DNA of 38,774 nt. Source: Phycisphaerae bacterium. GTDB taxonomy: Bacteria > Planctomycetota > Phycisphaerae > Phycisphaerales > Phycisphaeraceae. The position numbers were made by a program, and so were the translations under genes. The stretch covers positions 331,132-369,905 of the forward strand of contig JAUHZU010000004.1 in NCBI GenBank assembly GCA_030425705.1. Direction: 5' to 3'. Each line of letters opens with the position of its first letter. Position 1 is the stretch's first letter. Shown piece after piece: positions 1 through 4,652 of the stretch. The notes below the pieces were generated by a model, which worked only from the letters and a program-made list of their open reading frames with translations, made no database searches and was not told the origin of the DNA.

Positions 1-1948
1 CTTCCTTCGCGTAGCCCACGAACTTGTCGCTGACCGGCAGCACACGCACCTGCTCGGGGCTGAGCCACAGCGGGAACGCGCCGTTGAAGTGCTCGATGAG
101 CACGGCGATAAACCGCTCCATCGAGCCGAAGGGCGCGCGGTGGATCATGATCGGCCGGTGCGGCTTGTTGTCGCGGCCCACGTACTCCAGCTCGAAGCGC
201 TGCGGCAGTTGATAGTCGACCTGCACCGTGCCGAGCTGCCACTCCCGGCCGATGACGTCCTTGACGACAAAGTCGATCTTCGGGCCGTAGAACGCCGCCT
301 CGCCCGGCTCTTGGCTGAAGGGCACGCCCATAGACTGCGCGGCGGCGACGCAGGCGGCCTCGGCCGCGTCCCAGTCGCTCGACTCGCCGACGAACTTGCT
401 GCTGTCCGGGTCGCGCAGCCCGACGCGGACGCGGTAGTCGGTCATGCCCAGCGTCTTGAAGATGATCTTCACCAGCTCGATACAGCCCATCACCTCGTCC
501 GCGAGCTGGTCGGGCGTGACGAACAGGTGTGCATCGTCCTGCGTGAAGCTGCGGACGCGCGTCATCCCGCCCAGCTCGCCGGACTGCTCCCAGCGGTAGA
601 CCGTGCCGAACTCCGCGAGGCGGATGGGCAGGTCGCGGTAGCTGTGCTTGTCGTTGGCGTAGATGCGGATGTGGTGCGGGCAGTTCATGGGCTTGAGCAT
701 GTACCCGTCGATGTCGCCGTCGGTCATGCGCGCCGCCAGGTCGCCGCACGAGCAGCCCTCGTCGGCCAGCTTGCGCATCAGGTCGCTGTCTACCAGCGGC
801 GGGAACTGCGAGTCCTGGTAGTACGGGAAGTGGCCGGACGTGCGGTACAGGTCCAGCTTGCCGATGTGCGGCGTGAAGACCTGGTGGTAGCCCTGCTGCT
901 CGAGGTAGCGGGAGATGAACTTCTGCAGCTCGTCGCGGACGACCGCGCCCTTGGGCTTCCAGAGGATGAGCCCCTGGCCGACCTTCTCGTCGATGGCGAA
1001 CAGCCCGAGCCGCTGGCCGACGACGCGGTGGTCGCGTCGCTTGGCTTCCTCGAGGTTTTCCAGGTGCTGGTCGAGCTCTTCGGGCGAGAAGAACGCCGTG
1101 CCGTAGACGCGTTGGAAGCGGTCGGAGTTGACGTCGCCGTGCCAGTGTGAGGACGCGACGGACATGATCTTGAACGCGGCGATGCGGGACGTGCGGTCGA
1201 CATGCGGGCCTTGGCAGAGGTCTTCCCATTGCCAAATCTCTTTCTGTCCGTCCTTTAGGCTGGAGAGCGTGCCGCCATGTTGCTGCGTATCGCTGGGATT
1301 CCCTGTCACATAAAAGGACAGCATGGCTCCTTGCGCAGCTTCATACACATGCTTTTGGATCGGCGCTCCGACAGCATCCAAGTGATATGAGCGTTTGTTG
1401 TCGGCTCTATCTAGCGCCCTTGTTGCATTATCAACCTTGTACTTGTTTCCTTCGCGAAGCAGTTTATCCATGCCCTTGTCGTCGTGTGCCAGCTCATACC
1501 GCTTGAACGGTCGATCTTCCTCCACGATCTTGCGCATCTCCGCCTCGATCTTCTCGAAGTCGTCGGAGCTGATGGGCGTGTCTAGTTTTAAGTCGTAGTA
1601 AAAGCCGTTGTCCAGCGGCGGGCCGTAGGCGAGTTGGGTGTCGGGCCAGAGCCGTTCGATGGCCTCGGCCATGATGTGGGCGGCGGAGTGTCGGAGGAGG
1701 TAGAGGGCATCCGCCCGGTGCTGGTCGTCGCGGTAGGTGGGGATGCCTTTTTTGTTGAGGCGGGGCGCGGTGATGATGGCGACCTCGCAGTCGCCGGGGA
1801 GCGGGCGGTGGGCGTCGTAGAGCTCGCCGTTGACGCGGGCGCCGATGGCGGCCTTGGCGAGCCCCTCGCCGATGGAGGCGGCCAGGTCGTAGGCGGACGA
1901 CCCCTCGGGGAGGTCGCGTTCGGAGCCGTCGGGGAGTTGGATCTTCAT
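1..1948 (-). CDS. thrS: Threonyl-tRNA synthetase (3' end beyond window)
   Basis: Charges tRNA-Thr with threonine in the cytoplasm. The frame starts at an ATG at 1948 and stays open to the window edge, giving 649 codons; most of the C-terminal anticodon-binding domain lies outside. In order I see an N-terminal TGS domain (starts MKIQLPDGSERDLPEG), the editing-domain metal motif HSAAH (His87, His91) with its partner DLCQGPH (Cys245, His249), and the class II catalytic core with MNCPHH, RVRSFTQDDAH, FYGPKIDF and MIHRAPFGSMERF. Compared with E. coli ThrRS as I remember it, the stretch between the YKV motif and the Cys-His motif is about 45 residues too long. That stretch is also much lower in GC (separate entry). 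The motif reads CQGPH rather than the usual CRGPH. An upstream leader ORF and hairpin suggest attenuation control. The product assignment is secure. Confidence 0.96.
   Translation of the reverse strand, partial: MKIQLPDGSERDLPEGSSAYDLAASIGEGLAKAAIGARVNGELYDAHRPLPGDCEVAIITAPRLNKKGIPTYRDDQHRADALYLLRHSAAHIMAEAIERLWPDTQLAYGPPLDNGFYYDLKLDTPISSDDFEKIEAEMRKIVEEDRPFKRYELAHDDKGMDKLLREGNKYKVDNATRALDRADNKRSYHLDAVGAPIQKHVYEAAQGAMLSFYVTGNPSDTQQHGGTLSSLKDGQKEIWQWEDLCQGPHVDRTSRIAAFKIMSVASSHWHGDVNSDRFQRVYGTAFFSPEELDQHLENLEEAKRRDHRVVGQRLGLFAIDEKVGQGLILWKPKGAVVRDELQKFISRYLEQQGYHQVFTPHIGKLDLYRTSGHFPYYQDSQFPPLVDSDLMRKLADEGCSCGDLAARMTDGDIDGYMLKPMNCPHHIRIYANDKHSYRDLPIRLAEFGTVYRWEQSGELGGMTRVRSFTQDDAHLFVTPDQLADEVMGCIELVKIIFKTLGMTDYRVRVGLRDPDSSKFVGESSDWDAAEAACVAAAQSMGVPFSQEPGEAAFYGPKIDFVVKDVIGREWQLGTVQVDYQLPQRFELEYVGRDNKPHRPIMIHRAPFGSMERFIAVLIEHFNGAFPLWLSPEQVRVLPVSDKFVGYAKE
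1223..1432 (-). other. Low-GC in-frame insertion in the thrS editing domain
   Basis: These codons encode thrS residues 173-242, between the YKV motif and the DLCQGPH metal-binding motif of the N2 editing domain. I count about 52% G+C over 1261-1500, against about 68% at 601-660 and 77% at 1801-1860. Codons rare elsewhere in the window cluster here (AGA, AGG, CTA, GTT, AAT, ACA). The frame is uninterrupted through it, so the segment is translated. E. coli ThrRS has only about 25 residues at this place (from memory) against 70 here. It is too short for an intein and shows no splicing motifs. Either a recent insertion or a lineage-specific extension under different codon selection would explain it. 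Confidence 0.7.
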
Positions 1949-2044
1949 ATCGGGCCTGTGGGGTCGTCGTTTGGGGGTCGTAGGGGTCGGTTCGGCCGGC
2001 GGGCCGGGGCATTCAGCAGGGGATGCGGCATTGTTAACGAAACA

Positions 2045-2069
2045 GGCCGCCCGTGCGGTGGGGGCGGCC
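2045..2069 (-). terminator. Candidate attenuator hairpin upstream of thrS
   Basis: On the minus strand an 8-bp perfect GC stem (GGCCGCCC / GGGCGGCC, 9-nt loop, plus a flanking A-T pair) is followed by TGTTTCGTT, a broken U-rich tract. It lies about 100 nt before the thrS start and about 50 nt after the leader-ORF stop. With only divergent genes here it cannot terminate a neighbouring operon, so a role inside the thrS leader is the natural reading. The interrupted U-tract makes terminator strength uncertain. Several upstream CGGCCG segments could form competing pairings, but I cannot resolve an antiterminator by eye. Confidence 0.5.
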
Positions 2070-2115
2070 TCGGCCGGGCTCTGCGGGTTGTCCGGGGCGG
2101 GCCCGGGGGGCAGTG

Positions 2116-2190
2116 TCACAGCGTCGGCCGGGGGACGGGGGTCGTCCCGGTCGGGGTGGGGGTCGCGGGGGTGGTGTGACGGCTGGCCAT
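2116..2190 (-). CDS. Candidate Thr-rich leader peptide of thrS
   Basis: A 24-codon ORF starts at an ATG at 2190 and ends in TGA at 2116-2118. It contains 8 threonines, concentrated in TTPATPTPTGTT at residues 6-17. It sits about 30 nt downstream of a consensus-like promoter and about 50 nt upstream of a terminator-like hairpin, all on the thrS strand. This order matches classical leader-peptide attenuators: ribosomes would stall on Thr codons when charged tRNA-Thr is short. A leader peptide upstream of a synthetase has precedent in pheM-pheST of E. coli. There is no Shine-Dalgarno sequence. The main doubt is that high-GC noncoding DNA often yields Pro/Thr-rich frames by chance. Confidence 0.45.
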   Translation of the reverse strand: MASRHTTPATPTPTGTTPVPRPTL

Positions 2191-2228
2191 GGTCGGGTCG
2201 GTGCGGAGTGGTGCGTGGGGCGGGTTTC

Positions 2229-2256
2229 AGCGTATCGGGGCGGTCCCCGGTGTCAA
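2229..2256 (-). promoter_or_regulatory. Candidate sigma-70 promoter of thrS
   Basis: The minus strand carries a perfect -35 box TTGACA (2256-2251), a 16-bp spacer and the -10-like TACGCT (2234-2229). Transcription would begin near 2222, leaving about 30 nt before the leader ORF and about 270 nt before thrS. The -35 is exact; the -10 matches only 3 of 6. Confidence 0.5.
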
Positions 2257-2337
2257 GGATCGGCCGGCCCGGGGCTGGGGGTTTAGTAGGCCCGGGGGTG
2301 TGATAAAAAAGCGCTAGCGTCGTCTGGTAGGGCCCGA

Positions 2338-2368
2338 TACAATCCTCGCCCCGTGTTTGGGGGCGAGG
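2338..2368 (+). promoter_or_regulatory. -10-like box and 9-bp palindrome upstream of hppA
   Basis: TACAAT (2338-2343) matches the -10 consensus at 5 of 6 positions; no convincing -35 is seen. It abuts a perfect inverted repeat CCTCGCCCC / GGGGCGAGG (2344-2352 and 2360-2368, 7-nt loop). The expected transcription start would fall inside the repeat, so it could be an operator or a 5' mRNA hairpin. No U-tract follows, so it is not an intrinsic terminator. It completes the 514-bp divergent thrS-hppA region, in which I see no other gene. Confidence 0.4.
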
Positions 2369-2462
2369 CCCCGGTCTTGCCGATTCCTAACCCACGCTCC
2401 GGCGGTCTATCCACAGGAGGAAGGCCAGGAGAGCGGTAGCCAAGCCGATCGAGACACACGTC

Positions 2463-4652
<2,190 letters not shown>

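Follow-up and report, generated by a model that had tools for sequence, protein, structure and literature searches.

A threonine-rich leader with attenuator anatomy upstream of thrS in a Phycisphaerae bacterium, and its counterparts in related genomes

The stretch of 38,774 nucleotides that was analysed here (the window) carries, upstream of the threonyl-tRNA synthetase gene thrS and on the same strand, promoter-like hexamers, a short threonine-rich open reading frame (ORF) and a terminator-like hairpin. Anatomically, this leader arrangement corresponds to classical ribosome-mediated transcription attenuation, and with good confidence the element can be read as an attenuator that would sense charged tRNA-Thr and control thrS. 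The family of thrS leaders to which it belongs is very likely real. The window copy itself likely works as a threonine attenuator, although a weakened state is a real possibility. The following features compose the locus:

Positions 2256-2251, minus strand: -35 hexamer TTGACA, read in the sequence and identical in all three congeners aligned.
Positions 2234-2229, minus strand: -10 hexamer TACGCT, separated from the -35 hexamer by a 16-nt spacer; three of six positions match TATAAT.
ATG at 2190 to TGA at 2118-2116, minus strand: leader ORF MASRHTTPATPTPTGTTPVPRPTL, 24 codons, 8 of them Thr.
Positions 2070-2044, minus strand: terminator-like hairpin AGGCCGCCC-CCACCGCAC-GGGCGGCCT, nine GC-rich pairs and a 9-nt loop, with counterparts in the other qualifying loci.
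Positions 2043-2036, minus strand: U-rich tail GTTTCGTT, moderate, with five T in eight positions.
Positions 1..1948, minus strand: thrS, threonyl-tRNA synthetase (ThrRS), with its ATG at 1948; the gene runs past the window edge.

The identity of thrS is given by TIGR00418 (547 bits, cut-off 383.65), and its product contains TGS and tRNA-synt_2b domains. On its other side a membrane pyrophosphatase gene (2463-4652, plus strand) diverges from thrS. About 66 nt downstream of thrS a frame on the same strand appears sulfatase-like by eye, and the order infC-rplT is therefore not present there. ThrRS residues of about 190-240 are variable and insertion-like, many relatives aligning only over residues 1-190 and 240-649; near this stretch (window 1201-1575) the G+C content is 51-55%, compared with 61-73% elsewhere in thrS.

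In the thrS frame, a GTG at 2119-2116 shares bases with the leader stop (GTGA), and no stop codon interrupts the frame between this GTG and thrS, so that automatic annotation may begin ThrRS 57 codons early and thereby hide the attenuator. Translation of thrS from this GTG, which would add 57 residues to ThrRS and couple it to the leader ORF, is very improbable. The open frame and an overlap resembling that of coupled genes would suit such a start; however, the extension would hold the terminator, the TGS domain starts at residue 1 of the product begun at 1948, and the upstream frame of one congener (G001) is open only to -60 and contains no start codon, whereas that of the other (G002) is open to the leader stop and offers TTG codons only. 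On the grounds of the congener frames and the TGS position, the N-terminally extended ThrRS was rejected.

The promoter-like hexamers upstream of the leader ORF are retained across three congeners in the alignment, and the -10 hexamer, at equal spacing, reads TACGCT in G002 and TAATCT in G001. From these hexamers the RNA would be expected to start near 2222. The hexamers at 2256-2229 were not listed by a stock sigma-70 scan, since the -10 hexamer matches TATAAT at only three of six positions. A stock terminator scan likewise did not list the window hairpin, because its loop limit is 8 nt. Folded alone, the hairpin gives -18.7 to -19.1 kcal/mol; the sequence after it reads GUUUCGUU, and the 3′ end of a short RNA would be expected in the tail at 2043-2036. 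For the intrinsic terminator of a classical attenuator the window thus offers the terminator-like hairpin with its moderate tail (2070-2036), where termination is predicted, and for the cognate-codon-rich short ORF a frame with Thr at 8 of 24 codons, for which translation is predicted. Within this frame the Thr run is interrupted by Pro; the counterparts in the congeners contain 9 Thr in 25 codons (G001) and 12 Thr in 24 codons (G002). The three congeners all retain the promoter hexamers, the 3′ end of the leader, the position of its stop and the hairpin. Folding of the whole leader lent no support, with a z of -0.58 and 54 of 200 shuffles equally or more stable. The initial annotation had placed a TTGACA promoter hexamer, a 24-codon ORF with 8 Thr and the thrS ATG on one strand, and all of these were found where it had put them; the GC hairpin which it gave as 8 bp was also recovered, with nine pairs, while the U-rich tail proved moderate.

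Recurrence of the element was assessed in 105 thrS upstream regions, composed of 55 of the 61 nearest genomes (five had no ThrRS match, and G003 had a C-terminal match only) and 50 further genomes of the class, which were picked to cover families and members of the order and are not a random sample. Up to 450 nt upstream of thrS were considered, a few regions being shorter due to contig ends (e.g. L141). A qualifying region contains an ORF 8-60 codons long in which some 12-codon stretch carries the same amino acid six times or more, followed 8-70 nt past its stop by a terminator-like hairpin, in which the finder permits at most one mismatch. By this rule a Thr-rich ORF with hairpin is present in 32 of the 105 regions, whereas the remaining 19 amino acids together give a single match (His), probably a shifted frame of a Thr run. 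Dinucleotide shuffles under the same rule yielded Thr in 0 of 1,050 and Arg in three. A Thr-rich ORF is found in 33 regions, 32 of which have the hairpin, and the hairpin-less one is probably that of G069 of family f15. There (L315) MNTTTTTTTTC stands upstream of thrS as the end of a longer frame, with no hairpin by the rule, which possibly reflects another mode of control.

The element is not general in the class: 73 of the 105 regions lack it by the rule, including 20 of 33 in the window's own family. By family, using labels assigned by the analysis tool, it occurs in 13/33 (f1), 8/15 (f2), 1/13 (f3), 1/1 (f4), 5/6 (f5) and 1/5 (f6), in 3/5 of f11, which belongs to the same class and is given as outside the order, and in 0/27 over 17 further families. 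In a tree of ThrRS N-termini (n=65, 28 with leader) the trait requires 12 changes, whereas shuffling gives 21 on average and reached so low a count in 0 of 500 cases, although most of the forks are weak and near-identical sequences could by themselves cluster a trait. A DNA search with the window leader over the 61 genomes matched at the thrS position in one congener only, G001. The leaders contain 6-12 Thr each, amounting to 43% of codons overall when each leader is taken to begin at the start codon nearest upstream of the run; examples are MRHTAATTTTTTTTATTPCGRPTR (G002, same genus as the window), MLVTTTTTTTTTTTTRPPAIG (G013), MPRPTTTTTTTTETRPRG (G046) and MNTLTTTTTATTTTLTRGAGGL (G041). Among the 32 hairpins 28 distinct 5′ arms occur, each with a matching 3′ arm; as stem pairing is partly built into the finder, this describes a diversity of paired stems and is not an independent test of pairing. 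In a separate set of named genomes, 74 of 80 loci were scanned for Thr-rich ORFs with no hairpin criterion, six being omitted because their match begins close to the end of a contig or far into the protein, and at least two loci of this set (L038, L039) are order members already among the 105. Two of the 74 loci have a Thr-rich ORF, L046 with a clear run and L059 with a doubtful one. L046 comes from a record titled Cyanobacteria bacterium CYA N2_1; its ORF reads MKSVMSQPTTTTTPTSRRG, its ThrRS is 57% identical to that of the window, and it is perhaps a mislabelled bin or a transfer.

The initial annotation had proposed that a planctomycete thrS may be under leader-peptide attenuation, and the Thr-specific recurrence in 32 of 105 relatives supports this. 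As regards the comparisons that it suggested, ORF and hairpin recur in these relatives and are lacking by the rule in the larger part of the sample; Thr-rich leaders following retained hexamers hold for the three congeners, the element as such for the wider set; and, as to compensatory changes in the hairpin, varied paired arms are seen, within the limit set by the finder. Its own caution, that a Thr/Pro-rich frame together with a hairpin may arise by chance in GC-rich DNA, finds some ground in the high G+C content and the C-rich strand at the window locus, but does not hold for the family. Under a loose rule (ORF of 10-40 codons, Thr the commonest residue, at least seven Thr and at least 30%, hairpin 10-60 nt past the stop), 400 kb of the own genome, both strands, contain the window site and one other match with a weaker hairpin; moreover, Thr stands nearly alone among the amino acids in the 105 regions and is absent from the shuffles. 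Since the Thr-specific recurrence in relatives is the decisive evidence, chance is excluded for the family, and for the window element a chance origin is scarcely credible.

In window 1-4000 no Rfam family matched with E up to 1, and none exceeded its gathering score in the 20 loci scanned; a T-box or another Rfam leader was rejected accordingly. Below threshold, Trp_leader (RF00513) matches over the attenuator of L126 (G018; 401-477, minus strand) with 25.4 bits (gathering 41, E 0.52), probably reflecting a shared shape only. The two other matches in the 20 loci, also below threshold, are to sRNA families.

A TAnnnT box whose end lies 5-10 nt upstream of an in-frame leader start is present in 27 of the 32 loci, compared with 9% of random positions. 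With the box so placed, transcription would start on the start codon or within a few bases of it, and judged by the box these 27 leaders are probably leaderless. A -10 motif TAnnnT, located 4-9 nt before the RNA start, is described for Streptomyces lividans in the accessible part of PMC8079986. Five loci are exceptions: the window (G000), with a distance of 38 nt from -10 box to ATG, its congeners G001 (18 nt) and G002 (16 nt; both distances counted by eye), G018 and G021. In the alignment, 28 nt between the -10 hexamer and the ATG of the window are absent from both congeners.

The hairpins of many relatives end in at least five T, which argues against a reading where the Thr-rich ORF acts on translation of thrS and the hairpin is no terminator. 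Such control would find a parallel in the leaderless polycysteine ORFs of mycobacteria, which regulate downstream translation (Canestrari 2020 as cited in PMC9031893, accessible in part), and would accord with the moderately U-rich tail of the window. However, 95 nt separate the window hairpin from the thrS ATG, though some relatives have a shorter distance, as in G041, whose hairpin starts 65 nt upstream of the ATG. Taken together, translational control is quite improbable, and transcription attenuation is the preferred reading.

An attenuator further requires an alternative to the terminator, for which two candidate segments can be given:

Positions 2116-2134, minus strand: candidate segment 2, the 5′ side of the antiterminator, at the leader 3′ end CCCCCGGCCGACGCTGTGA.
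Positions 2061-2078, minus strand: candidate segment 3, the 3′ side of the antiterminator, overlapping the 5′ arm of the terminator in the fold.

In the fold, segment 2 pairs with CCCGGCCGAGG, which covers the base of the terminator arm and the nucleotides preceding it. The gap between leader stop and hairpin measures 22-48 nt, and 24-32 nt in 24 of the 32 loci. Pairing of the 5′ arm with the segment around the stop reaches a mean z of -2.03 against segment shuffles (n=32), with z below -2 in 17 and below -1 in 22 of the 32 loci. In family f5, ATCGGYTGGTGCG, starting at the last letter of the stop codon, is by eye a near-exact complement of the arm CGCACGGCCGAT; a single position varies between T and C and stands opposite a G, which allows pairing in either case. 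In f2 the arm pairs with two short segments, CTCGG directly after the stop and GCGGC directly ahead of it. The congeners G002 and G001 give z of -2.80 and -0.97, whereas the window gives -0.37, no better than shuffles, and in its full fold the terminator is present alongside the main antiterminator helix, CGGCCG. The alternative pairing, and with it the antiterminator fold that the initial annotation had suggested looking for, is thus supported over the set and not for the window alone.

With its split Thr run, a 38-nt 5′ UTR and an antiterminator at shuffle level, the window copy is among the weaker ones. It might even be decayed, the family being real and this copy now a constant partial terminator or inert, after loss of leaderless initiation, of the compact Thr run and of the antiterminator; the 28-nt alignment gap in the two congeners, filled in the window only, and the moderate tail could be taken in the same sense. 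This is unlikely, as hexamers, leader 3′ end, stop position and hairpin are kept in the three congeners and eight Thr remain. For a functional attenuator the following course is proposed. RNA polymerase would begin near 2222 and transcribe the leader, and a ribosome following behind it would translate the Thr-rich ORF. With ample Thr-tRNA, the ribosome would get to the stop at 2116 and cover the surrounding segment, upon which the hairpin at 2070-2044 could form and transcription would end near 2040. With scarce Thr-tRNA, it would stall in the Thr codons and leave the stop segment free to pair with the 5′ arm of the hairpin, so that no terminator would form and thrS would be transcribed; thrS would in this way respond to threonine.

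A parallel arrangement precedes ileS (TIGR00392, 783 bits) in the own genome (L340, G000:C16), where TATACT is followed after 6 nt by an Ile-rich ORF, MTHAQPTIIAIIISDPDQR, and a GC hairpin with TTTTT. Under a looser rule of 4 in 12 codons, an Ile-rich ORF with hairpin occurs before ileS in 15 of 30 genomes, own genome included, the 30 regions being the loci for the best of 60 genomes with a match; other amino acids were found in 0-3 regions each and Ile in 0 of 600 shuffles. A -10 box lies 5-10 nt before a start in 13 of these 15 leaders, again including the own genome. The Ile leader and the mostly leaderless appearance of the relatives' leaders both go beyond the initial annotation.

No cognate-rich leader was seen before pheS, serS, proS, glyS, hisS, tyrS, trpS, valS, leuS and metS in up to six genomes, with the genes told apart by eye within Pfam matches and several loci in which the upstream region was unreached or a wrong frame used (e.g. 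L237, L225, L240); this absence is a lead, not proof. Some unrelated ORF-hairpin pairs do precede these genes. In the own genome (L250, G000:C9), a class II synthetase gene that looks like glyS by eye is preceded by a strong hairpin, CAGCCCCGCAATACGCCTGCGGGGCTG, followed by CGTTTTTT; this hairpin comes after a Pro-rich frame without clear meaning. Before hom no Thr-rich ORF was listed in six genomes, the upstream region of G046 not being reached, and at L371 a frame with 4 Ile in 12 codons precedes hom. A scan for leaderless leaders covering 800 kb of the G013 genome and 400 kb of the window's own, stretches containing no leader findable by the rule, gave four matches, none convincing; as the same rule recovers 23 of 32 thrS and 8 of 15 ileS leaders, misses are likely. 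Isoleucine is made from threonine. It is an evenly balanced proposition that members of the class use leaderless attenuation as a two-channel sensor of tRNA-Thr and tRNA-Ile charging, acting at thrS and ileS and at none of the other synthetase genes looked at, with repeated gain and loss.

The thr, his and trp leaders of E. coli are classical leader-peptide attenuators. With these, as with those of synthetase genes, the present element shares a cognate-rich short ORF, a terminator-like hairpin before the gene and, over the set of loci, a putative alternative antiterminator; it differs from them in its target, thrS, in the phylum and, as the -10 box suggests, in that most relatives would have their start codon close to the 5′ end of the RNA. 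Control of thrS is known as translational autoregulation in E. coli and by a T-box in Firmicutes, and to the T-box and the Rfam leaders the element would be alike in function if the attenuator explanation holds. A comparative study of attenuation at aminoacyl-tRNA synthetase genes was reportedly made by the Lyubetsky group in about 2010. If true, the present reading extends amino-acid-sensing leader-peptide attenuation to Planctomycetota. Attenuation requires coupling of transcription and translation, and planctomycete cell organisation has been debated; the leaders therefore represent ready reporters of coupling and of leaderless translation.

Our literature searches brought up no report of an amino-acid attenuator for Planctomycetota; in the accessible part of PMC4833913, short leader genes in Planctomycetes are counted for reinitiation distances, not as amino-acid attenuators. 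Leader-peptide attenuation of synthetase genes is described, in the portions available, for pheST of gamma-proteobacteria and for trpS and leuS of Streptomyces (PMC1262725), and a His leader precedes hisS paralogues in Bacilli (PMC2965389). Like the leaderless polycysteine ORFs of mycobacteria, as far as the excerpt of PMC9031893 describes them, most leaders found here would be leaderless short ORFs with a one-amino-acid run sensing supply, but the mycobacterial ORFs use Cys and act on downstream translation, whereas a terminator-like hairpin follows here. The closest parallel is thrL of Streptomyces lividans TK24, likewise a leader peptide before thrS on a leaderless transcript (inferred here for most relatives), which its authors list as an attenuator (PMC8079986, accessible part); neither the thrS target nor leaderless initiation is therefore new as such. 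According to the same part of that report, this actinobacterial leader, MKRVRPFLETTPGFVPAR, has only two Thr and one hairpin with no U-rich stretch, at which termination is unclear to the authors, whereas the leaders described here combine 6-12 Thr with a terminator-like hairpin. Given its Thr runs, its hairpins and the accompanying Ile leader, the planctomycete case is clearer than the Streptomyces one.
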